Source: Tomitella biformata AHU 1821 (GTDB lineage Bacteria; Actinomycetota; Actinomycetes; Mycobacteriales; Mycobacteriaceae). Taken from it: a stretch of DNA of 64,000 bases. A model generated the notes under the pieces. The model saw only the letters and a program-made list of their open reading frames with translations, did not search any database and was not told the DNA's origin. Position 1 is the stretch's first letter, and each line of letters starts with the position of its first letter. Position numbers and translations under genes: made by a program. The DNA is taken from positions 1 to 64,000 of the forward strand of contig NZ_BAVQ01000036.1 of the NCBI RefSeq assembly GCF_000524475.1, written 5' to 3'. Shown in pieces: positions 32,106 to 62,507 of this stretch.

Positions 32106-32155
32106 TCGGGCGTCTTCCTTCGCAGATAACTGAACCTCCGTTCTAGACATTGGAG

Positions 32156-32184
32156 TTATCCACAGCTGCTCGCCTATCCACAGG
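32156..32184 (+). promoter_or_regulatory. 29-bp TTATCCACA element, copy A (ssd-tad promoter)
   Basis: TTATCCACA, ten bases, then TATCCACAGG: a direct repeat of TATCCACAG with an 18-bp period. The same arrangement recurs at 39952-39980 and, on the minus strand, at 62447-62475. Here it ends 50 nt before the ssd start codon. The first nonamer equals a DnaA-box consensus, but no replication genes are near; a transcription-factor site is more likely. Confidence 0.65.
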
Positions 32185-32234
32185 CGGCCTGATTCGCGGG
32201 GTGCGAGGGCTAAGCGCTGGGGCACGGTGGGGTC

Positions 32235-33305
32235 ATGGGAATCGACGAACCCCGGCCGGAGCCGGTACTGAGCTGGCTCAGCGGGCCCGTGCTGCGCGGC
32301 GAGGTGTCTCGGGCCACCGCGGCGGCGGCGGTGGCGGTGGAGGAGCTGGACTCGGCGCCGGGCCGTGGGCAGTGGGACCGCGCGCGCACGCTCCTCCTCG
32401 ATGTCGAGGCGGCAGGGGCATGCATCGAGGCCGGGCTGCCCCGCCGAGGCGGGGTGCTGGTGTTGAGCGATGGATCCGAGGGTGCGGACCCCTGGCAGCT
32501 GGCCGTCCGGCTGGGCGCGGAGCACGTGCTCGCGCTGCCGGCCGACGCCGCGCAGCTCGTGCGGCTGCTGGGCAGCGCGCCGCGGGCGACGGGGGCGGGC
32601 ACTGGTGGGGTGGTCGCGGTGGTCGGCGGCAAGGGCGGGGTCGGAGCCTCGGTCTTCGCCGCGGCCGTCGCCGCCTGCGCGCAGCCGGCGGCGTTGCTCG
32701 TGGACCTGGACCCGATGGGGGCGGGCCTGGATCTGATGTTCGGGTTGGAGCGCGCGTCCGGGCTGCGCTGGCCGGATCTGCGCCTGCAGGGCGGCCGCGT
32801 GCATGCGGCGGCGCTGCGGCGGGCGTTGCCGAGCAAGGGCGGGGTCTCGGTCCTGTCCTCTGGCCGGGATCTGGCGCCGCCCGCCGAGCCCGCGGTGCGC
32901 GCGGTTCTGGAGGCGGGACGCGACGGCGGGCTCGTTGTGGTGTGCGACGTGTCCCGGTCGCGGAGCCCCGTCGCTGAGTTGGCCCTCGAGCTTGCGGACC
33001 TGGTGGTGCTCCTCGCGACGGCGGATGTGTCGGCGTGCGCCGCGGCCGCCCGCGCCGCGGCGTGGATCCTGCCGCACAACCCCAACCGGTGCCTGGTGGT
33101 GCGCGGGCCGTCCCCGGGCGGGCTGCGTGCGACCGACATCTCTGCCGCGGTGGGGCTGCCGCTGCTCACCTCGATGCGGCCGGAGCCGGGCCTGGCCCGC
33201 CGGCTCGAGCACTCGGGCCTGGTGTTGGGCCGGCGGTCACCGTTGGCGGCCGCGGCGGGAGCTGTGCTGCGGGTGCACAATCTGCGGCCGGACGGTGCGG
33301 CGTGA
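32235..33305 (+). CDS. ssd: Septum-site/CpaE-like P-loop protein Ssd
   Basis: The 356-aa protein has an N-terminal receiver-like region without phosphorylation Asp, then a MinD/CpaE-like ATPase domain with V-V-G-G-K-G-G-V-G-A-S at about 133-143 (deviant Walker A; final Ser/Thr region altered), V-D-L-D-P-M-G-A-G near 160 and V-V-V-C-D-V-S near 238. In mycobacteria Ssd affects septum formation, and in other bacteria CpaE/TadZ localises the Tad machinery. It heads the ssd-tadABC operon; the next start (GTGA) overlaps its stop. ATG 32235 lies downstream of the TTATCCACA element. Confidence 0.88.
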   Translation: MGIDEPRPEPVLSWLSGPVLRGEVSRATAAAAVAVEELDSAPGRGQWDRARTLLLDVEAAGACIEAGLPRRGGVLVLSDGSEGADPWQLAVRLGAEHVLALPADAAQLVRLLGSAPRATGAGTGGVVAVVGGKGGVGASVFAAAVAACAQPAALLVDLDPMGAGLDLMFGLERASGLRWPDLRLQGGRVHAAALRRALPSKGGVSVLSSGRDLAPPAEPAVRAVLEAGRDGGLVVVCDVSRSRSPVAELALELADLVVLLATADVSACAAAARAAAWILPHNPNRCLVVRGPSPGGLRATDISAAVGLPLLTSMRPEPGLARRLEHSGLVLGRRSPLAAAAGAVLRVHNLRPDGAA

Positions 33306-34486
33306 GCGCTGTCGACCCCGGGCTGGTCCAGCGGGTGCGCGAGCGGCTCGCGGGTGTCGGGGGAGCCGCCGGGGCGGCAGCGGTGGCCGCGGCCGTGCGC
33401 GCGGAGTCCTCGGGGGTGGTCGGCGACACCGACATGTTGCTGATCCTGCGGGAACTCGAGATGGAGTTGACCGGCGCTGGGATCCTCGCGCCGCTGCTCG
33501 CGGACCCGCGGGTGTCCGACGTGGTTGTCAACGGACCCGCGGAGGTGTGGGTCGACCACGGCGCGGGGCTGCGACGCGCGGCGGTCCGATTCCCGGACGA
33601 GGCCGCCGTGCGCCGGCTCGCCCAGCGGCTGGCCCTCGCGGCCGGCCGACGGCTGGACGACGCGCAACCCTGGGTCGACGGTCGCCTCGCAGGGGCAGAT
33701 GCCGGCGTCTCGGCCGTGCGGATGCACGCGGTGCTCGCGCCCATCGCGATCGACGGCACCTGCATCTCGCTGCGCGTCCTGCGCCCGGCGACCCAGGGTC
33801 TCGACGCGCTCGCGGCCAGCGGGGCCATCGCGCCGCGGGCCCACCTGCTGCTGCGGGCGATCATCGCGGCGCGGCTGTCCTTCCTCGTCGTGGGCGGCAC
33901 CGGGGCCGGCAAGACCACGCTGCTCTCAGCCATGCTCGGCCAGGTCGACCCCGCGCAGCGGATCATCTGCGTCGAGGACGCCCCCGAGCTCGCCCCGCAG
34001 CACCCGCAGGTGGTGCGGCTGGTCGCGCGCCCGCCCAACGTCGAGGGGGCTGGGGCCGTGACACTGCGCGACCTCGTCCGCCAGGCCCTGCGCATGCGCC
34101 CGGACCGGATCGTCGTCGGCGAGGTTCGCGGCGCGGAGGTCGTGGACATGCTCGCCGCGCTGAACACTGGCCACGACGGCGGGGCGGGGACGGTGCACGC
34201 GAACTCGCCCTTCGAGGTGCCCGCACGGATGGAGGCGCTCGCGGCATCCGGCGGGATGGACCGCGCCGCGTTGCACAGCCAGCTCACGGCGGCGGTGCAG
34301 GCCGTGCTGCATGTGCGACGGACAGCGGGCGGACGACGAGAGCTCGCCTCGATCGCGATGCTCGTCCGCGGTGGGGACAGCGCGCGGGTGGTGGAGGCGT
34401 GGACGGCTGGCGCGGGGCCCGCGGCGGGGTTTCCGGAGTTGGTGCGTCTACTCGCGGACCGGGGCCACGGCGGGGGTCTCGCATGA
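33302..34486 (+). CDS. tadA: Tad pilus assembly ATPase TadA/CpaF
   Basis: The 394-aa secretion ATPase has an N-terminal helical domain (V-Q-R-V-R-E-R-L), D-V-V-V-N-G-P near 70, Walker A G-G-T-G-A-G-K-T-T at about 198-206, Asp box E-D-A-P-E-L near 222, and Walker B/His-box region R-M-R-P-D-R-I-V-V-G-E-V-R near 265. It should power pilin export or assembly at the inner membrane. GTG 33302 overlaps the ssd stop and the tadB start overlaps its own stop, so the four genes are translationally coupled. Confidence 0.93.
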   Translation: MSAVDPGLVQRVRERLAGVGGAAGAAAVAAAVRAESSGVVGDTDMLLILRELEMELTGAGILAPLLADPRVSDVVVNGPAEVWVDHGAGLRRAAVRFPDEAAVRRLAQRLALAAGRRLDDAQPWVDGRLAGADAGVSAVRMHAVLAPIAIDGTCISLRVLRPATQGLDALAASGAIAPRAHLLLRAIIAARLSFLVVGGTGAGKTTLLSAMLGQVDPAQRIICVEDAPELAPQHPQVVRLVARPPNVEGAGAVTLRDLVRQALRMRPDRIVVGEVRGAEVVDMLAALNTGHDGGAGTVHANSPFEVPARMEALAASGGMDRAALHSQLTAAVQAVLHVRRTAGGRRELASIAMLVRGGDSARVVEAWTAGAGPAAGFPELVRLLADRGHGGGLA

Positions 34487-35286
34487 CCGCGGGGCTGGGG
34501 TTCGCGGCGCTCGCCCTGGCCGGTGCGCTGCTGGCCTGGCCGGGTGGCGCGGCCCGGCAGCGGCTGCGCGCGGACCCAGCGCGCGGGATCCGCACGGTGC
34601 GCAGGCGGGGGCAGGCGGGTGGGGTGCTCGCTGTGCTGGCTGTGCTGGCCGGCGCATTCTGGGTGGGTCTCGCGGGGATCGTGGCGGCGGCGATGGTGGT
34701 GGGCACGTTGGCTTTTCGGCGGCACGCGCGGATCCTGGACGCGCGCGGGGAGGAGGGGTCCGCAGCGCTGGTGGAGGCCCTCGACGTGCTGGTCTCGCAG
34801 CTTCGAGTGGGCGTGCATCCCGGCATGGCGTGCGCCTTCGCGGCCGTGGAATGCGGCGGGAGTCCCGTCGGCCCGGTGCTGGAGCGGGCGGCGGCCCAGG
34901 CGGCGCTCGGCGGATCGATCGCCGAGGCGCTGGACTCGGACGTCGCGGACTTCCCGGACTTGCCGCGCGTGGCGGGAGTCTGGGCGCTGGCGGAGCGGCA
35001 CGGCATCGCGATGGGGGAGATGCTCGACGTGGTGCGCCGGGACCTGTTGGAGCGTCAGGGATTTCGCCGGCGAGTGTCGGCTGGCCTGGCCGGTCCACGG
35101 GCGACCGCCACGGTGCTCGCCCTCCTGCCAGTCGTGGGGGTGGGGCTGGGGCAACTCATGGGGGCGGCCCCGCTGGGGGTCCTCCTCGGCGGCGGTCTCG
35201 GCGGGGTCCTGCTGGTCGTCGGTGTCCTCCTCGATTGCGGCGGGCTGCTGTGGGCGGAGCGGATCGCCCGGGTCGGTGTCCGATGA
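34483..35286 (+). CDS. tadB: Tad pilus inner-membrane protein TadB
   Basis: The 267-aa protein shows hydrophobic segments at the start (residues 5-20), about 48-75, and two near the C-terminus (about 205-260), enclosing a type II secretion F (T2SSF)-like helical domain with A-L-V-E-A-L-D-V-L-V-S-Q-L-R-V-G near 90-105. It is shorter than TadB of Gram-negative systems but normal for Mycobacteriales (Rv3658c type). The long open frame upstream of 34483 overlaps ssd and tadA in another frame and is not coding. Start and stop both overlap neighbours by four bases. Confidence 0.85.
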   Translation: MTAGLGFAALALAGALLAWPGGAARQRLRADPARGIRTVRRRGQAGGVLAVLAVLAGAFWVGLAGIVAAAMVVGTLAFRRHARILDARGEEGSAALVEALDVLVSQLRVGVHPGMACAFAAVECGGSPVGPVLERAAAQAALGGSIAEALDSDVADFPDLPRVAGVWALAERHGIAMGEMLDVVRRDLLERQGFRRRVSAGLAGPRATATVLALLPVVGVGLGQLMGAAPLGVLLGGGLGGVLLVVGVLLDCGGLLWAERIARVGVR

Positions 35287-35993
35287 CGGCGCTGGTGGCG
35301 GTGCTCCTCGCCGCGGCGGTGCTGACGGCCCCGCGCCGGCAGGTCCGCGAGCGGCTCCCGCTGTCGACCCTGGAGCGATCCGGCGGCGCGGAGTGGCTGC
35401 GGCACAGCGTCTTCGCGGTGCTCGGCGGGCTGGCGGCCGCGGCGGTGGTCGGCGGCCTCGCCGGAGTGTTGGCAGGCGCGGTGATTGCCGCGGCGCTGGC
35501 CTTCGTCCTGCGACGATGGTCGGTGCGGGAGCCGGCGGATGATCCGCTGGCGGTCGCCGCGGGGCTCGACTTGCTCTCCGCCTGCCTACTGGCGGGGCTG
35601 CCGTTGGCGACGGCCGTCGGCGCGGTGGCGGGGACGCTGCATGGCGCGCCGCGGATGCGGTCGGGGCTGCGCCGGGCGGCGGATCTGCTCGCGCTCGGCG
35701 GGGATGCCGGCGCCGTGTGGGAGACCCTCGGGCAGGCTAAGGGGCTGGGGCCGGTGGCGCGGATGGCCCGGCGCTCTGCGGACTCGGGATCCTCGCTGGC
35801 GGCGGGCGCGGCGGAGTTGGCGACGGCGACCCGGGAACAGGCCGGAGACCGCGCGCTGATCGCCACCGAGCGGGCCGGCGTCGCCGTGTCCGGGCCCCTG
35901 GGCCTGTGCTTTCTGCCCGCCTTCCTCTGCCTGGGGATCGCGCCGGTGGTGCTGGGCCTGGCCGGGAAAGTGCTCGGCGGGGGCGTGCTGTGA
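35283..35993 (+). CDS. tadC: Tad pilus inner-membrane protein TadC
   Basis: The 236-aa protein has hydrophobic segments at residues 3-15, about 42-80 and 200-235, and a T2SSF-like domain (A-A-G-L-D-L-L-S-A-C-L-L-A-G-L-P near 95-110). It pairs with TadB to form the inner-membrane platform. The gene ends with GGGGGCGTGCTGTGAGCGC (35979-35997), nearly identical to 40124-40142 just before the pilin genes. In mycobacteria the pilin genes follow directly; here about 4.2 kb of other genes intervene. Confidence 0.83.
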   Translation: MTALVAVLLAAAVLTAPRRQVRERLPLSTLERSGGAEWLRHSVFAVLGGLAAAAVVGGLAGVLAGAVIAAALAFVLRRWSVREPADDPLAVAAGLDLLSACLLAGLPLATAVGAVAGTLHGAPRMRSGLRRAADLLALGGDAGAVWETLGQAKGLGPVARMARRSADSGSSLAAGAAELATATREQAGDRALIATERAGVAVSGPLGLCFLPAFLCLGIAPVVLGLAGKVLGGGVL

Positions 35994-36097
35994 GCGCGCC
36001 GCGATTTGATTGGGCGGCTGGAAGCCGCTAGCCTATGCCCGATCGGCATGTCAACCCCCGACACGCCCGTTCTAGATCATGTCCGGGAAGGACCTCG

Positions 36098-36172
36098 ATG
36101 CGCGGCACCGCAGCCACCGCCACCGCGACGCGAATGCGCCACGTGTGTTGTCGCTGCATGCGCGTGAACTGA
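36098..36172 (+). CDS. Polycysteine leader peptide (uORF)
   Basis: A 24-codon frame starts at ATG 36098 with GGGAAGGA about 6-8 nt upstream and ends at TGA 36170-36172. Its last part reads M-R-H-V-C-C-R-C-M-R-V-N: three Cys codons within four, near the stop. An internal ATG at 36134 gives a 12-aa version. Cys-rich short ORFs of this kind act as cysteine-responsive attenuators in mycobacteria. Downstream genes (oxygenase and metQNI) are consistent with sulfur control. A strong hairpin follows 12 nt after the stop. Expression was not shown. Confidence 0.65.
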   Translation: MRGTAATATATRMRHVCCRCMRVN

Positions 36173-36183
36173 GACGAGATCCC

Positions 36184-36211
36184 GCGTGATGGCCCCTCCT
36201 GGCCATCCCGC
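36184..36211 (+). promoter_or_regulatory. Hairpin downstream of polycysteine uORF (candidate attenuator)
   Basis: GATGGCC (36188-36194) and GGCCATC (36201-36207) form a perfect stem, extended by GCG/CGC (36184-36186 with 36209-36211) across one mismatch. The loop CCTCCT is complementary to a Shine-Dalgarno core. There is no U tract, so control could be Rho- or translation-linked rather than intrinsic termination. Confidence 0.55.
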
Positions 36212-36297
36212 ATCCCTGTGCTGATTCTTCCCACCGGGCACCACACCGTCGCAGCATGAGTGGTCCGCCGGTGCCCGTGGGAAAAGGAATCATTGCC

Positions 36298-37311
36298 ATG
36301 CCTGCTCAAACCCTCCCGATAATCGATCTGGAGAGCCTCGACTTGGATCTGCTGCGTGCGGTCACGCACGAGATCGGCTTTTTCTACCTCACCGGCCACG
36401 GCATCGAGCAGCAGCTCACCAACGACCTCGTCGCTGCGGCCCGTGAGTTCTTCGCGCTGCCCGAGGCCGACAAGCTGGAGATCGAGAACGGCAAATCACC
36501 GCATTTCCGGGGCTACACCCGGGTCGGCGGCGAGCGCACCCAGGGGTATATCGACTGGCGCGAGCAGCTCGATATCGGGCCCGAGCGCGCCGCGGTGAAG
36601 CCGTTCGACCCGGACCGCCCGTGGGACGTGCTGCACGGGCCGAACCTGTGGCCGGCCGGGGTGCCGCGGCTGCGCGAGCTGGCGCTCGAGTGGTCTTCCC
36701 AGGCGCAAACCGCCGGGCTGCGGCTGATCAGCGCGTGGGCGTCCTCGCTCGGCGTCTCGGAAGAATTCTTCGACGCGGCGTTCGCCGATCCCGACCCGCT
36801 GCTGAAGATCGCCCGCTACCCGGGCCACGACGGCTCGGTCACCGGCCAGGGGGTGGGCAGCCACAAGGACGTCGGGGCACTGACCCTGCTCTACCCCGAG
36901 CCGGGCAGCACCGGGTTCCAGGTGGAGACGGGGGGTGCGGGAGGCGAGATCGCGTGGCTCGACGTCGCGCCGCTGCCCGGCCACCTGGTGGTCAACATCG
37001 GCGAGCTCCTTGAAGTCGCCACCGGAGGCTATCTCAAGGCCACCGTGCACCGGGTGCTGCCGCCGCCCGCCGGCTCCGACCGCGTCTCGCTGCCGTTCTT
37101 CCTCAACCCCGGCTACGACCACGCCTTGCCCACTGTGTCGCTGTCGCCCGAGCTCGCGGCCGAGGCCGCTGGCGTCGGACCCGACGAGCACGGCGGCGCC
37201 TTGCACGCCCAGTACGGGCTCAACGCGCTCAAGTCGCGTCTGCGCGCGCACCCCAACGTGACCGAGCGGTACCACCGCGACCTCCTCGACCTGCCCGCAC
37301 TCCGCGGCTGA
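36298..37311 (+). CDS. Isopenicillin N synthase-like 2OG-Fe(II) oxygenase
   Basis: The 337-aa protein belongs to the IPNS/2-oxoglutarate dioxygenase family: an N-terminal DIOX_N domain (I-I-D-L-E-S then E-I-G-F-F-Y-L-T-G-H-G near 30-42) and a jelly-roll core with iron ligands H-K-D (G-S-H-K-D-V-G near 190), a second His in V-H-R-V-L near 247 and R-V-S near 258 for 2OG binding. The substrate is unknown. It is first in a cluster with metQNI and has a Cys-codon leader upstream, suggesting a sulfur-compound substrate. ATG 36298 follows AAAAGGA; an in-frame ATG at 36256 is less likely. Confidence 0.85.
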   Translation: MPAQTLPIIDLESLDLDLLRAVTHEIGFFYLTGHGIEQQLTNDLVAAAREFFALPEADKLEIENGKSPHFRGYTRVGGERTQGYIDWREQLDIGPERAAVKPFDPDRPWDVLHGPNLWPAGVPRLRELALEWSSQAQTAGLRLISAWASSLGVSEEFFDAAFADPDPLLKIARYPGHDGSVTGQGVGSHKDVGALTLLYPEPGSTGFQVETGGAGGEIAWLDVAPLPGHLVVNIGELLEVATGGYLKATVHRVLPPPAGSDRVSLPFFLNPGYDHALPTVSLSPELAAEAAGVGPDEHGGALHAQYGLNALKSRLRAHPNVTERYHRDLLDLPALRG

Positions 37312-37364
37312 CCATTCCCACGCTCTTGTCGGCCACGGCCGACGCCACCGAAAGGACATCTCGA

Positions 37365-38198
37365 ATGTTTTTGCGCCGCACCGCAGTTCTCTCCGCCGCC
37401 GCCTTGCTCACGCTGGGCCTGGCCGCCTGCTCCTCGGGCGGTGACGAGAACACGCTGGTGGTCTCCGCGTCCAGCACCCCGCACGTGGAGATCCTCGAGC
37501 ACATCGCCGCGTCTGGCGCCCTGGGCGACGTGAAGTTGGACATCAAGCCCGTCACCGGCGAGATCGACCCCAATGAGCTGCTCGTCGCCGGCGACGTGGA
37601 GGCCAACTACTTCCAGCACGCCCCCTACCTGGCGGACTGGCAGAAGCAGAAGGGCGTCGACGACCTGGTCGCCGTCGCCGACGTGCACCTCGAGCCGATG
37701 GGCCTGTATTCCGAGAAGGTCTCCGCGGTCGACGAGATCGCCGACGGCTCGACCATCGCGCTGCCCAAGGACACCACCAACTTCTCCCGCGGGCTGTACC
37801 TGCTCGAGTCGGCCGGCCTGATTCAGATGGACGTGCCGTTCGCCGAGGCGGACCTGTCGATCGTGACGCAGAAGAACATCAAGGAGAACCCGAAGAACCT
37901 CAACTTCATCGAGGTCGAGCGCTCGCAGATCGCGCGCAACCTCGGCGACCCGCAGATCACCGCCGCCGTCATCAACTCCAACTATGCGATCGAGGCCGGC
38001 CTGATCCCGGCGGACGACGCGCTGCTGTCGGAGACCGTCGTCGGCAACCCGTTCGCGAACCTGCTCGTCGTCCGCGCCGCCGACGAGAACTCCCCGGCAG
38101 TCGAGGCGCTCGCCGACGCTCTCGTCTCCCCGGAGACCGCCGCCTGGATCCAAGAGAACTACTCCGGCTCCGTCGTCCCGGTGCACGCGGCTAGCTGA
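37365..38198 (+). CDS. metQ: MetQ/NlpA-type substrate-binding lipoprotein
   Basis: The 277-aa protein has a lipoprotein signal peptide with lipobox L-A-A-C (Cys at about 21), then the NlpA fold: L-V-V-S-A-S-S-T-P-H-V-E-I-L near 30-43, N-Y-F-Q-H-A-P-Y-L near 80 and G-S-T-I-A-L-P-K-D-T-T-N near 125. It should bind methionine or a related sulfur compound for the MetNI transporter. GAAAGGA precedes ATG 37365. The stop shares its last base with the metN ATG. The F-Q-H motif and the N-S-N-Y-A pocket region are typical of methionine-binding members. Confidence 0.9.
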   Translation: MFLRRTAVLSAAALLTLGLAACSSGGDENTLVVSASSTPHVEILEHIAASGALGDVKLDIKPVTGEIDPNELLVAGDVEANYFQHAPYLADWQKQKGVDDLVAVADVHLEPMGLYSEKVSAVDEIADGSTIALPKDTTNFSRGLYLLESAGLIQMDVPFAEADLSIVTQKNIKENPKNLNFIEVERSQIARNLGDPQITAAVINSNYAIEAGLIPADDALLSETVVGNPFANLLVVRAADENSPAVEALADALVSPETAAWIQENYSGSVVPVHAAS

Positions 38199-39217
38199 TG
38201 ATTTTCGTCGAGAACCTGGTAAAGACCTTCCCCGCCGCAGGCGGGGCAGGGGAAGTCTCAGCCCTGCGCGGGATCGACCTCCAGATCGCCGAGGGCGAGA
38301 TATTCGGCATCGTCGGCCCGTCCGGCTCGGGCAAGTCGACGCTGCTGCGGTGCCTGAACCTGCTCGAGCAGCCCACCTCCGGCCGGATCGCGCTGCGCGG
38401 CGATGACCTCTCGCAGCTCGCCGGCGCCAGCCTGCGTGGCGCACGCAGGCGTATTGGCACGGTGTTCCAGCAGTTCAACCTGCTGCACGCGCGGACGGTG
38501 CGGGCCAACGTCGAGTTCCCGCTCGAGCTCGCGGGCCTGGACCGGGTGCAGCGACGGGCCCGGGCTGATGAGCTCATCGCGTTGGTGGGCCTGACTGGCA
38601 AGGAGAAGGCGTTCCCGTCGCAACTCTCCGGCGGTCAGCAACAGCGCGTCGGTATCGCCCGAGCGCTGGCGTCGGAGCCGGACGTGCTGCTGTGCGATGA
38701 GGCGACCAGCGCGCTCGATCCCGACACCACCGATCAGGTCCTCGACCTGCTCGTCGAGCTCAACCGCACGCTCGGCGTCACGGTCGTGCTCATTACCCAT
38801 GAGCTGGGCGTGCTGCGGCGCATCTGCACCGCTGCCGCCCGGCTTGAGGACGGCCGGGTCGCCGAGACGGGGCGGATCCTGGACCTGGTGGCCGACCCCG
38901 GCTCGGCGCTGGGCGCGGCGATCGTCCCGGTCGGGGACGACCCGTCCGGCGGCGACCGCGCGGATACCGCGCTGGTCACGACGATCGGGGCCGAGGCACA
39001 CGGGCCGTGGCTCGCGCAGCTTGTGCGCACGCTGGACGCCGATGTCGCCGTCGTCGGCGGCCGGGTCGAGCAGGTGGCGGGCGTGACCGTCGGCCGCCTG
39101 CGGCTGCGCTTCGGTCCGGATGTGGACCGCGCTGCCGTCGACGCGTTCGTCGCCGCGCAACCGAACGTCACCCTCGCCTGGGGCGCTGACATCGAGATTG
39201 AGGGACTGCTCGAATGA
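38198..39217 (+). CDS. metN: Methionine ABC transporter ATPase MetN
   Basis: The 339-aa ATPase has Walker A G-P-S-G-S-G-K-S-T near 44-52, Q-loop Q-Q-F-N, signature L-S-G-G-Q-Q-Q-R near 143-150, Walker B V-L-L-C-D-E-A-T near 162-169 and H-loop T-H-E-L. After residue 245 a C-terminal NIL-like domain follows, which in MetN senses methionine and shuts transport (trans-inhibition). It is coupled to metQ by a TGATG junction and to metI by ATGA, so the three genes form one unit. Confidence 0.93.
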   Translation: MIFVENLVKTFPAAGGAGEVSALRGIDLQIAEGEIFGIVGPSGSGKSTLLRCLNLLEQPTSGRIALRGDDLSQLAGASLRGARRRIGTVFQQFNLLHARTVRANVEFPLELAGLDRVQRRARADELIALVGLTGKEKAFPSQLSGGQQQRVGIARALASEPDVLLCDEATSALDPDTTDQVLDLLVELNRTLGVTVVLITHELGVLRRICTAAARLEDGRVAETGRILDLVADPGSALGAAIVPVGDDPSGGDRADTALVTTIGAEAHGPWLAQLVRTLDADVAVVGGRVEQVAGVTVGRLRLRFGPDVDRAAVDAFVAAQPNVTLAWGADIEIEGLLE

Positions 39218-39882
39218 AGAAACTGTCCTGGTACGACTCGCTGCCCGAGGTATGGGACGCGACGCTCGAAACCCTGTACATGGTGGCGATCGCATTTTTG
39301 CTCACCGTGCTTGGCGGGATCCTGCTCGGGGTGGTGCTGCATGTCACCTCGGCGAAGGGCCTGTGGCCGCAGCGGGCCATCAACATGGTGCTTGGCACTA
39401 TCGTCAACGTCTTCCGGTCGCTGCCGTTCCTGATCCTCATGATCGCGCTGATCGGGGTGACCAGGTGGATCGTCGGCACGGCGATCGGCCCGACCGCGGC
39501 CATCGTGCCGCTGACAATCGGCGCGATCCCGTTCTACGCGCGGGTGGTCGAGGCCGCGCTGCGCGAGGTTCCGGTCGGCCGCGTCGAGGCCGGTCAAGCC
39601 ATGGGCGCCACCAACGGTCAGCTCGTCCGCAAGGTGCTGCTGCCGGAGTCGGCATCGGCGTTGGTGGCGGGCGCGACGTTGACCGTGGTGCTGCTGGTCG
39701 GGTACTCCGCGATGGCCGGGGTCATCGGGGGTGGCGGCCTGGGCGACTTCGCGATCGTCTATGGCTACCAGCGGTTCAACACGCCGGTGCTGTTGGTCTC
39801 GGTCGTCGTGCTGATCGTCATGGTGCAGATCTTCCAGTCGATCGGCGATGGCATCGTTCGAGCTCTGGCCCACCGCCGCTAG
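39214..39882 (+). CDS. metI: Methionine ABC transporter permease MetI
   Basis: The 222-aa permease has five predicted membrane segments and the binding-protein-dependent transport loop E-A-G-Q-A-M-G-A-T near 127-135. It begins with W-Y-D-S-L-P-E-V-W-D-A-T-L-E-T-L-Y-M, the usual MetI N-terminus. Length is normal. It ends about 20 nt before a long GC hairpin that would stop transcription before the pilin promoter. Confidence 0.93.
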   Translation: MKKLSWYDSLPEVWDATLETLYMVAIAFLLTVLGGILLGVVLHVTSAKGLWPQRAINMVLGTIVNVFRSLPFLILMIALIGVTRWIVGTAIGPTAAIVPLTIGAIPFYARVVEAALREVPVGRVEAGQAMGATNGQLVRKVLLPESASALVAGATLTVVLLVGYSAMAGVIGGGGLGDFAIVYGYQRFNTPVLLVSVVVLIVMVQIFQSIGDGIVRALAHRR

Positions 39883-39901: not shown

Positions 39902-39938
39902 CACCGCCGCCCCATGCTCTGAGAGTGGGGCGGCGGTG
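39902..39938 (+). terminator. GC-rich terminator hairpin after metI
   Basis: CACCGCCGCCCCA (39902-39914) pairs perfectly with TGGGGCGGCGGTG (39926-39938), loop 11 nt. It is followed by CAGGTTCTG rather than a T run, so termination may be incomplete or factor assisted. It separates the metQNI unit from the pilin promoter. Confidence 0.65.
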
Positions 39939-39951
39939 CAGGTTCTGAGGG

Positions 39952-39980
39952 TTATCCACAAGCACTCGCGAATTCACAGG
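39952..39980 (+). promoter_or_regulatory. 29-bp TTATCCACA element, copy B (pilin promoter)
   Basis: TTATCCACA, ten bases, AATTCACAGG, with the same spacing as copy A. Similarity to the ssd upstream region continues for about 100 bp, through CGGGGTGC and TGGGGCAC-GTGG to an ATG at 40031, exactly 50 nt after the element, as in copy A. The pilin genes therefore appear to be driven by a duplicate of the ssd promoter. Confidence 0.65.
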
Positions 39981-40030
39981 CGACCGGTTTCTCGGGGTGC
40001 CCGGTTGCGGTGATGGGGCACTGTGGAGCC

Positions 40031-40138
40031 ATGGCGATCGAGGGGAACCGGCAAGGCGCAGAGCCGAGTCGCGTCGCCGTCCGGCCGCGGGGGTGGGGCC
40101 GGTCAAGGGCCCAGCTACCCGACGGGGACGTGCTGTGA
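40031..40138 (+). pseudogene. Deletion scar: ssd-like start fused to tadC-like end
   Basis: A 35-codon frame begins MAIEGNR, resembling the ssd start MGIDEPR, directly behind the duplicated ssd promoter. It ends D-G-D-V-L-stop, and the DNA at its end (GGGGACGTGCTGTGAGCGC, 40124-40142) matches the tadC end at 35979-35997 in 18 of 19 bases. This looks like the residue of a duplicated ssd-tadABC unit that lost its interior. It could also be expressed as a leader peptide for the pilin genes. Confidence 0.6.
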
Positions 40139-40195
40139 GCGCCGGCGATGTCCGCCGCGGATTGGCCGCGGTGGGAGAAGAGAAGGGGGCGGGCC

Positions 40196-40420
40196 ATGGG
40201 GACGATTGGCATGGGCGCGATTGGCACGGGGATCAGGAGGACGCAGGCGCGGATCACGTTGGCCGCGCTGGAGGACGACGGCATGTCCACCGCAGAATAT
40301 GCGATCGGGACTATTGCGGCCGCGGCTTTCGGCGCCATCCTGTACACCGTTGTGACCGGCGACAACATCGTCAGCGCATTGACGGGCATTATCGATCGGG
40401 CGCTGAGCACCAGCGTCTGA
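40196..40420 (+). CDS. Flp-like pilin (DUF4244)
   Basis: The 74-aa protein has the DUF4244 pattern: a charged N-terminus, D-D-G-M-S-T-A-E-Y-A-I-G-T-I-A-A-A-A-F, with the G/MSTAEYA motif resembling a prepilin cleavage site ahead of a single hydrophobic helix (Glu at +5), and a short D-R-A-L-S tail. It is probably the major pilin subunit, processed by a prepilin peptidase not encoded in this window. ATG 40196 follows GAAGGGGG; an in-frame ATG at 40148 would add 16 residues. Corresponds to the Rv3656c position. Confidence 0.82.
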   Translation: MGTIGMGAIGTGIRRTQARITLAALEDDGMSTAEYAIGTIAAAAFGAILYTVVTGDNIVSALTGIIDRALSTSV

Positions 40421-40455
40421 GCAGTCGGTCCGGTGGCCTTGCGGGGGACGCCGGC

Positions 40456-40770
40456 ATGGCGACGGTGGAGGCCGCGCTCGCGTTGGCGGCGCTGATCGTC
40501 GTGGTGGTGAGCTGCGTGGGGGCGATCCTCGCGGTGGGGCAGCAGGTGCAGTGCGTCGACGCTGCCCGCGAGGCCGCGAGGCTCGCCGCCCGCGGGGATA
40601 CTGCGTGGGCCGAGGAGGTCGCCGGCCGCGTCGCCCCCGCGGGGGCGAGCATCACTGTGCGGGTCGACGGCGATACCGCGACCGCGACCGTGCGGGCCCA
40701 GAGCGCGCTGCTGCCGCTGGTGTCCTTCGGTGCGACGGCGGTCGCCGCGATGGAACCGGAGGTCGGCTGA
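40456..40770 (+). CDS. TadE-like minor pilin
   Basis: The 104-aa protein starts M-A-T-V-E-A-A-L-A-L-A-A-L-I-V-V-V-V, a TadE-type N-terminal helix with the conserved Glu at position 5 after the processing region. It continues with D-A-A-R-E-A-A-R-L-A-A-R-G near 40 and an alternating Val/Arg/Thr beta region. It likely forms a pseudopilin of the Tad system (Rv3655c position). The start is uncertain: the frame stays open upstream without a clear ATG or GTG, so a rare start may add about ten residues (D-A-G before Met). Confidence 0.78.
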   Translation: MATVEAALALAALIVVVVSCVGAILAVGQQVQCVDAAREAARLAARGDTAWAEEVAGRVAPAGASITVRVDGDTATATVRAQSALLPLVSFGATAVAAMEPEVG

Positions 40771-40771
40771 G

Positions 40772-41128
40772 ATGGGTGACGACCGGGGCGCGGGGACGGT
40801 CTTCGCCGCGTTCGCGCTGCTGGCGCTGCTGCTGCTCGCGGCCGCGGGAATTGAGATCGGTGGGGCGGTGACGGCGCGGCACCGGGCGCAATCGGCGGCG
40901 GACTTCGCGGCGCTGGCGGCCGCGGGCGAGGTGGCGCTGGGCGGGGAGGGCTGCGCAGCGGCGCTGCGGCTCGCCGACCGCAATGGGGGCGAGCTCTCGA
41001 GCTGCGTCGTCGAGGGGGCGGATGTCGTGGTGCGGGTGACGGTGGCGCTGCCGCTCGGCCTGCCACTGGGCTCGGTGGGGCTGGGGCCGGCGGTCGCGGC
41101 AGCGCGGGCGGGGCCGGTCTACGAGTGA
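40772..41128 (+). CDS. TadG/Rv3654c-like pilus-associated protein
   Basis: The 118-aa protein begins M-G-D-D-R-G-A-G-T-V-F-A-A-F-A-L-L-A-L-L-L-L, an N-terminal membrane segment of the Tad/TadG-like (PF13400) type, followed by R-H-R-A-Q-S-A-A-D-F-A-A-L-A-A-A and a small extracytoplasmic domain with two Cys (about 56 and 73) that could form a disulfide. It begins one base after the TadE stop and is last in the pilin operon. Confidence 0.8.
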   Translation: MGDDRGAGTVFAAFALLALLLLAAAGIEIGGAVTARHRAQSAADFAALAAAGEVALGGEGCAAALRLADRNGGELSSCVVEGADVVVRVTVALPLGLPLGSVGLGPAVAAARAGPVYE

Positions 41129-62446: not shown

Positions 62447-62475
62447 CCTGTGGATGGGGGAGTGCCTGTGGATAA
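62447..62475 (-). promoter_or_regulatory. 29-bp TTATCCACA element, copy C (DUF559 gene promoter)
   Basis: On the minus strand: TTATCCACA, ten bases, CATCCACAGG, with spacing identical to copies A and B at the Tad locus. It ends 45 nt before the DUF559 gene start. The shared internal CTC after position 13 also agrees with A and B. Confidence 0.65.
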
Positions 62476-62507
62476 CTGTCCGGAGAGGCCTCGCCGCAGG
62501 CGCTGTT

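Follow-up and report, generated by a model that had tools for sequence, protein, structure and literature searches.

Competence regulons such as those of ComK and ComX/SigX in Firmicutes are marked by a common promoter motif. In the actinobacterium Micrococcus luteus, transformation needs Flp pilus biogenesis (PMC4322843) and expression of the com genes has been linked to a SAF gene (PMC8467076). A 2026 paper describes the competence regulon of this species as "currently unknown" (PMC12849477), and term searches of two of these papers returned no promoter motif. The locus analyzed here lies in a window of 64,000 nt, the whole stretch of DNA that was studied. It resembles the M. luteus case (PMC4322843, PMC8467076), where the transformation of an actinobacterium is connected with comEA/comEC, a SAF (RcpC/CpaB) gene and the genes of the Tad/Flp pilus. 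Transformation has been shown in M. luteus, whereas here competence is read from genes and a motif. As in the ComK and ComX/SigX regulons, one motif is found before pilus, DNA-uptake, DprA, SSB and RecA-type genes, but the motif is a different one, its activator is a candidate only, and a Tad pilus takes the place of the Com pilus. The sequence of its boxes is that of DnaA boxes (TTRTCCACA) but, unlike the DnaA cluster of an origin, they are arranged as strictly spaced direct pairs at the promoters of DNA-uptake and pilus genes.

In the window, ssd-tadABC and the pilin genes are separated by a sulfur cassette whose module occupies about 36081-39882, and a second copy of the ssd promoter, P', stands between the cassette and the pilin gene (Table 1). 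The stretch 39951-40052 aligned without gaps to the reference 32155-32256 (P), with 71% identity over 102 nt. The local alignment scored 11.9 sd over dinucleotide shuffles and remained 8.4 sd over them without the 30-nt motif, with 0/1000 shuffles as high in both cases. Identity starts at the G of GTTATCCACA, perhaps ~15 nt further to the left when gaps are allowed, and extends to ~22 nt past the ATG. Two boxes are present at fixed spacing, TTATCCACA-N12-TTCACAG, with the ATG 76 nt past the first TCCACA. The first 30 nt of the repeat correspond to a motif of two direct boxes, GTTATCCACA-...-TYCACAGG, and since this motif is common to about a dozen other promoters, these 30 nt by themselves are insufficient as evidence of duplication. 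When the motif is left out, the promoters of ssd and pilin are identical at 49/72 positions (0.68, z 5.7), whereas the 65 other pairs of promoters in this genome average 22.2 identical positions (sd 4.7) and reach 33 at most. Because this likeness exceeds that of all other pairs and continues past the ATG for ~22 nt into the coding sequence, P' is, by this comparison, copied from the ssd promoter rather than an independent member of the regulon. These data bear out the first-pass annotation, which had noticed a likeness to the ssd promoter and start before the ATG at 40031, had proposed the pairwise alignment, and had concluded that the pilin genes gained their own copy of that promoter. It had overlooked that, as judged from the motif, the "ssd promoter" belongs to a family with members across the genome, and that several other lineages have pilin promoters of this family.

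Table 1 Features of the tad locus and of its promoters in the window
Feature	Position	Strand	Evidence
Promoter P, two-box motif GTTATCCACA-...-TATCCACAGG, upstream of ssd	32155..32184	+	Motif scan
ssd (septum site-determining protein / CpaE homologue)	32235..33305	+	TIGR03815 E=1.1e-89, over cut-off
tadA ATPase	33302..34486	+	TIGR03819 E=7.6e-150; T2SSE
tadB, T2SSF domain	34483..35286	+	PF00482
tadC, T2SSF domain	35283..35993	+	PF00482
tadC tail, reference copy of 19-nt direct repeat	35979..35997	+	Repeat search
Sulfur cassette: 2OG-Fe(II) oxygenase, NlpA/MetQ lipoprotein, MetN-like ATPase with NIL domain, MetI-like permease	about 36081..39876	+	Pfam and nucleotide comparison
Short Cys-rich leader frame MRGTAATATATRMRHVCCRCMRVN before cassette	36098..36172	+	Translation
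Strong hairpin 3' of metI, candidate terminator between cassette and P', without T run	39902..39938	+	Folding
Promoter P' and start, copy of 32155-32256; boxes GTTATCCACA, TTCACAGG and N12 spacer kept	39951..40052	+	Alignment
35-codon frame, ssd-like beginning, tadC-like end	40031..40138	+	Translation and repeat
71-nt filler between the two remnants	40053..40123	.	No score above shuffles versus whole ssd-tadABC
tadC tail, second copy, 18/19	40124..40142	+	Repeat search
Flp-type pilin (DUF4244)	40196..40420	+	PF14029 E=4.6e-24
tadE-like	40429..40770	+	PF07811
tadF/tadG-like	40772..41128	+	PF13400
Third two-box promoter in window, before AbiEi-like gene	62448..62476 (site 62472)	-	Motif scan

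The cassette, from about 36081 to 39876 and including its Cys leader region, is 82-85% identical at the nucleotide level to sequences of other genera. Its MetQ is absent from the sister species, as is the cassette as a unit, and the genus's own oxygenase copies share only about 70% protein identity with the cassette oxygenase. Absence from the sisters together with 82-85% identity in other genera suggests that the cassette was most likely imported horizontally from another genus, in line with the sulfur module that the first-pass annotation had seen as captured between the two gene groups. No transposase or integrase family was matched among the cassette proteins. Another copy of the 2OG oxygenase, 59% identical, was found ~94 kb from the cassette copy (G000:C78:130841-131824, minus strand). 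At fourfold sites the identity between the cassette and its nearest relatives is 0.58-0.75, a range similar to the identity of P and P' outside the motif (0.68), and for this reason the arrival of the cassette and the copying of P' may possibly share a common age, as one old event; the true donor of the cassette may be closer than those sampled.

Mycobacterial sulfur operons carry Cys-rich leader peptides. The term occurs in two papers (PMC9031893, PMC7790235). Like these leaders, the short frame in front of the cassette places a Cys tract before sulfur genes, and a counterpart with a Cys tract can be read from the sequence at the same place in the cassette of another genome (G013). The frame is probably a cysteine-responsive attenuator of the cassette, differing from the mycobacterial leaders in that it forms part of an imported cassette and in that attenuation is putative. 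G013 was considered as the donor of P' and rejected, its ssd promoter being different. At the other end of the cassette, the hairpin has a 14-bp stem, the whole 68-nt stretch folding at -35.6 kcal/mol (z -2.3). Since this strong hairpin follows metI, the pilin gene probably cannot depend on transcription of the cassette.

Downstream of P', the frame starting at 40031 reads MAIEGNRQGAEPSRVAVRPRGWGRSRAQLPDGDVL* and terminates with a stop codon at 40136-40138. It runs into the 19-bp block, noted earlier, that matches the tadC end (40124-40142 versus 35979-35997) at 18/19 positions and that proved to be the sole other site of this 19-mer in the window at ≤3 mismatches, with 0.15 chance matches expected. 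The second tadC tail lies 57 nt before the pilin ATG, and in relatives the tadC stop lies 46-72 nt before it (n = 9); judged by position, the tail with its pilin spacing is the ancestral junction. Remnants of both ends of ssd-tadABC are present and keep the ancestral order (P', ssd start, tadC tail, pilin). The filler between them displayed no homology above shuffles to ssd-tadABC or to the cassette and, when compared with the first 400 nt of ssd alone, gave a score reached by 5/200 shuffles, too weak for use. Searches with the scar DNA in 60 relatives returned short, chance-like matches only, none of them at a tad locus.

The first-pass annotation had explained the scar by a tandem duplication of ssd-tadABC followed by loss of the interior of one copy. 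Such a collapsed tandem duplication is plausible, and we give it close to an even chance: the whole unit would have been duplicated, or a cassette-bearing circle integrated by a single crossover, with the cassette ending up between the two copies, the second of which would then have lost its interior by deletion. The remnants of both ends, collinear with the ancestral operon, and the ancestral spacing of the tadC tail argue for it, whereas the 71-nt filler, which contains no tadA or tadB and nothing more of ssd or tadC, and the three events required argue against it. The inspection of sister species that accompanied this proposal recovered a contiguous ssd-tadABC-pilin operon in 4/4 of them, but no intact ssd-tadABC duplicate among the relatives examined. 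Because the filler is without homology and the relatives are without an intact duplicate, a small copying event fits about as well, and we hold it, tentatively, as a tenable possibility. The cassette and a short ssd promoter fragment would then have been inserted at the tadC stop, with 19 nt duplicated by template switching or target duplication, and a 4-kb duplication would never have existed. The 19-nt repeats (35979-35997 and 40124-40142) exactly flank all new sequence, as such an event would leave them, and the filler without tadABC homology is consistent with it; against this, the cassette proteins matched no transposase or integrase family, and a promoter fragment from 8 kb off would have to be joined to a foreign cassette with both order and orientation correct.

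The promoter family, which is of greater importance than the repeat itself, has the consensus TTATCCACA-N12-TYCACAG (GTTATCCACA-N12-TYCACAG), located ~70-110 nt upstream of the start codon. The pattern TCCACA-N(8-14)-TYCACAG occurs at 13 sites in the genome, with a spacer of exactly N12 in 11 of them, compared with 0 for the reversed pattern used as control. Twelve of the 13 sites are upstream of genes: ssd-tadABC, the pilin gene, comEA-comEC (the comEA target combines SLBB and HHH domains, with comEC alongside), yraN-comM-dprA, an A24 prepilin peptidase gene, a SAF/CpaB-like gene, ssb, a DUF4192 gene, and four genes that we take to be AbiEi-like, among which the one behind the 62448-62476 site had no Pfam or NCBIfam match. 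The remaining site, on contig C106, is followed by no gene and probably reflects chance.

A scan of 61 genomes from the order counted 414 occurrences of the two-box pattern and 97 of the control, with the pattern commoner than the control in 51 genomes and rarer in 6. A site is also present at recA in G022 and G040 (recA identified by Pfam in G022). Nine of ten named loci, from Mycobacterium, Lentzea, Umezawaea and Amycolatopsis, carry a single site each, situated about 90-200 nt before the ssd match, and none elsewhere there; no two-box site was found at the Mycobacterium sp. IS-1590 locus (L118). The pilin gene has its own two-box promoter in seven relatives, mostly from other families (G031, G037, G039, G043, G052, G055, G056); two of these, G056 and G043, have divergent pilin and ssd operons, with one site per operon. 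The motif was not detected at the pilin gene of two split genomes, G012 and G054, indicating that a two-box promoter of its own is not strictly required. The distance from ssd to pilin is 12.6 kb in G028 (locus L065) and 20 kb in G012. In G022, an inverted repeat, CTGTGGATAACTT-...-AAGTTATCCACAG, lies upstream of ssd, between ssd and a divergent HAD gene (L006, around 2600-2627). The open-licence literature yielded no description of the motif in a competence context, the papers listed being on DnaA or on unrelated subjects.

The motif is common to genes of DNA uptake, DNA processing and the pilus (comEA-comEC, comM-dprA, ssb, the A24 peptidase, tad and pilin genes), and we infer that the two-box family constitutes the promoters of a competence (DNA-uptake) regulon. 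Since this regulon takes in comEA-comEC, dprA, comM, ssb and the prepilin peptidase, its most likely output is natural competence, with DNA taken up via the Flp/Tad pilus. Because the boxes equal DnaA boxes and TTGTCCACA is also found in front of dnaA and within the presumed origin, it is the gene content that carries the link to competence, and DnaA is a candidate regulator; the activator may be DnaA or another factor. A crude residue-pattern search detected no helix-turn-helix gene beside the SAF gene, where an M. luteus-style regulator would be placed. Near dnaB, GTTATCCACAGAGTTATCCACAG, with two boxes 12 bp apart, is located upstream of a DnaB-like helicase gene (L099, G000:C101:24142-24163). 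The boxes might instead be DnaA sites tying these genes to replication or DNA damage and not to DNA uptake, as would befit the identity with TTRTCCACA, the occurrence of TTGTCCACA at dnaA and the origin, and targets such as ssb here and recA in relatives. We consider this unlikely, since the majority of targets are DNA-uptake or pilus genes, and the fixed N12/N13 spacing and the promoter position are unlike those of origin boxes. DnaA could even so be the regulator of competence.

Very improbable is an independent origin of P' as a regulon promoter, or its derivation from a different gene of the regulon, with shared regulation as the only source of its resemblance to P: about a dozen promoters carry the motif and other lineages have two-box pilin promoters, but the likeness outside the motif is far over that of every other promoter pair (z 5.7), continues across the ATG into 22 nt of coding sequence, and is accompanied by the tadC tail.

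Taken together, these results lead us to favor, with reasonable confidence, an account in which P' is a copied regulon promoter, the cassette split an old operon, the boxes were kept for co-expression of pilin and Tad machine, and the output is competence. In the order of events that we infer, a single two-box promoter would originally have served the whole of ssd-tadA-tadB-tadC-pilin-tadE-tadF. An uptake cassette of the methionine/cysteine type, bringing its own Cys leader, would have come from another genus to lie between tadC and pilin, and a duplicate piece of the old operon, comprising the promoter, the ATG, ~7 ssd codons and then the tadC tail, would have been left before the pilin gene. 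P' is probably a working promoter copy, from which the pilin genes would be transcribed. Its boxes would have been kept by selection because pilin and Tad machine have to be produced together, and P' would thereby keep the pilin and the pilus machine co-expressed after the split.

The split operon represents a natural experiment, in which a foreign cassette would have parted the pilin from its machine and the pilin received a copy of the same promoter. More broadly, and with a confidence that stays just short of even, the data may point to an undescribed competence regulon shared by members of this order, including mycobacteria, their relatives and Pseudonocardiaceae, with paired DnaA-like boxes (TTRTCCACA-N12/13-TCCACAG) covering the Tad pilus, ComEA/EC, DprA, ComM, SSB and RecA. 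DnaA itself may act as its switch, and selection would tend to restore its promoter after the pilin has split off. For the control of competence in high-GC Gram-positive bacteria, the motif, which picks out comEA-comEC, dprA, comM, ssb, prepilin peptidase and Tad pilus genes together, directly supplies genes and promoters that can be tested, and the group concerned includes the mycobacteria, where natural transformation is not generally recognized.
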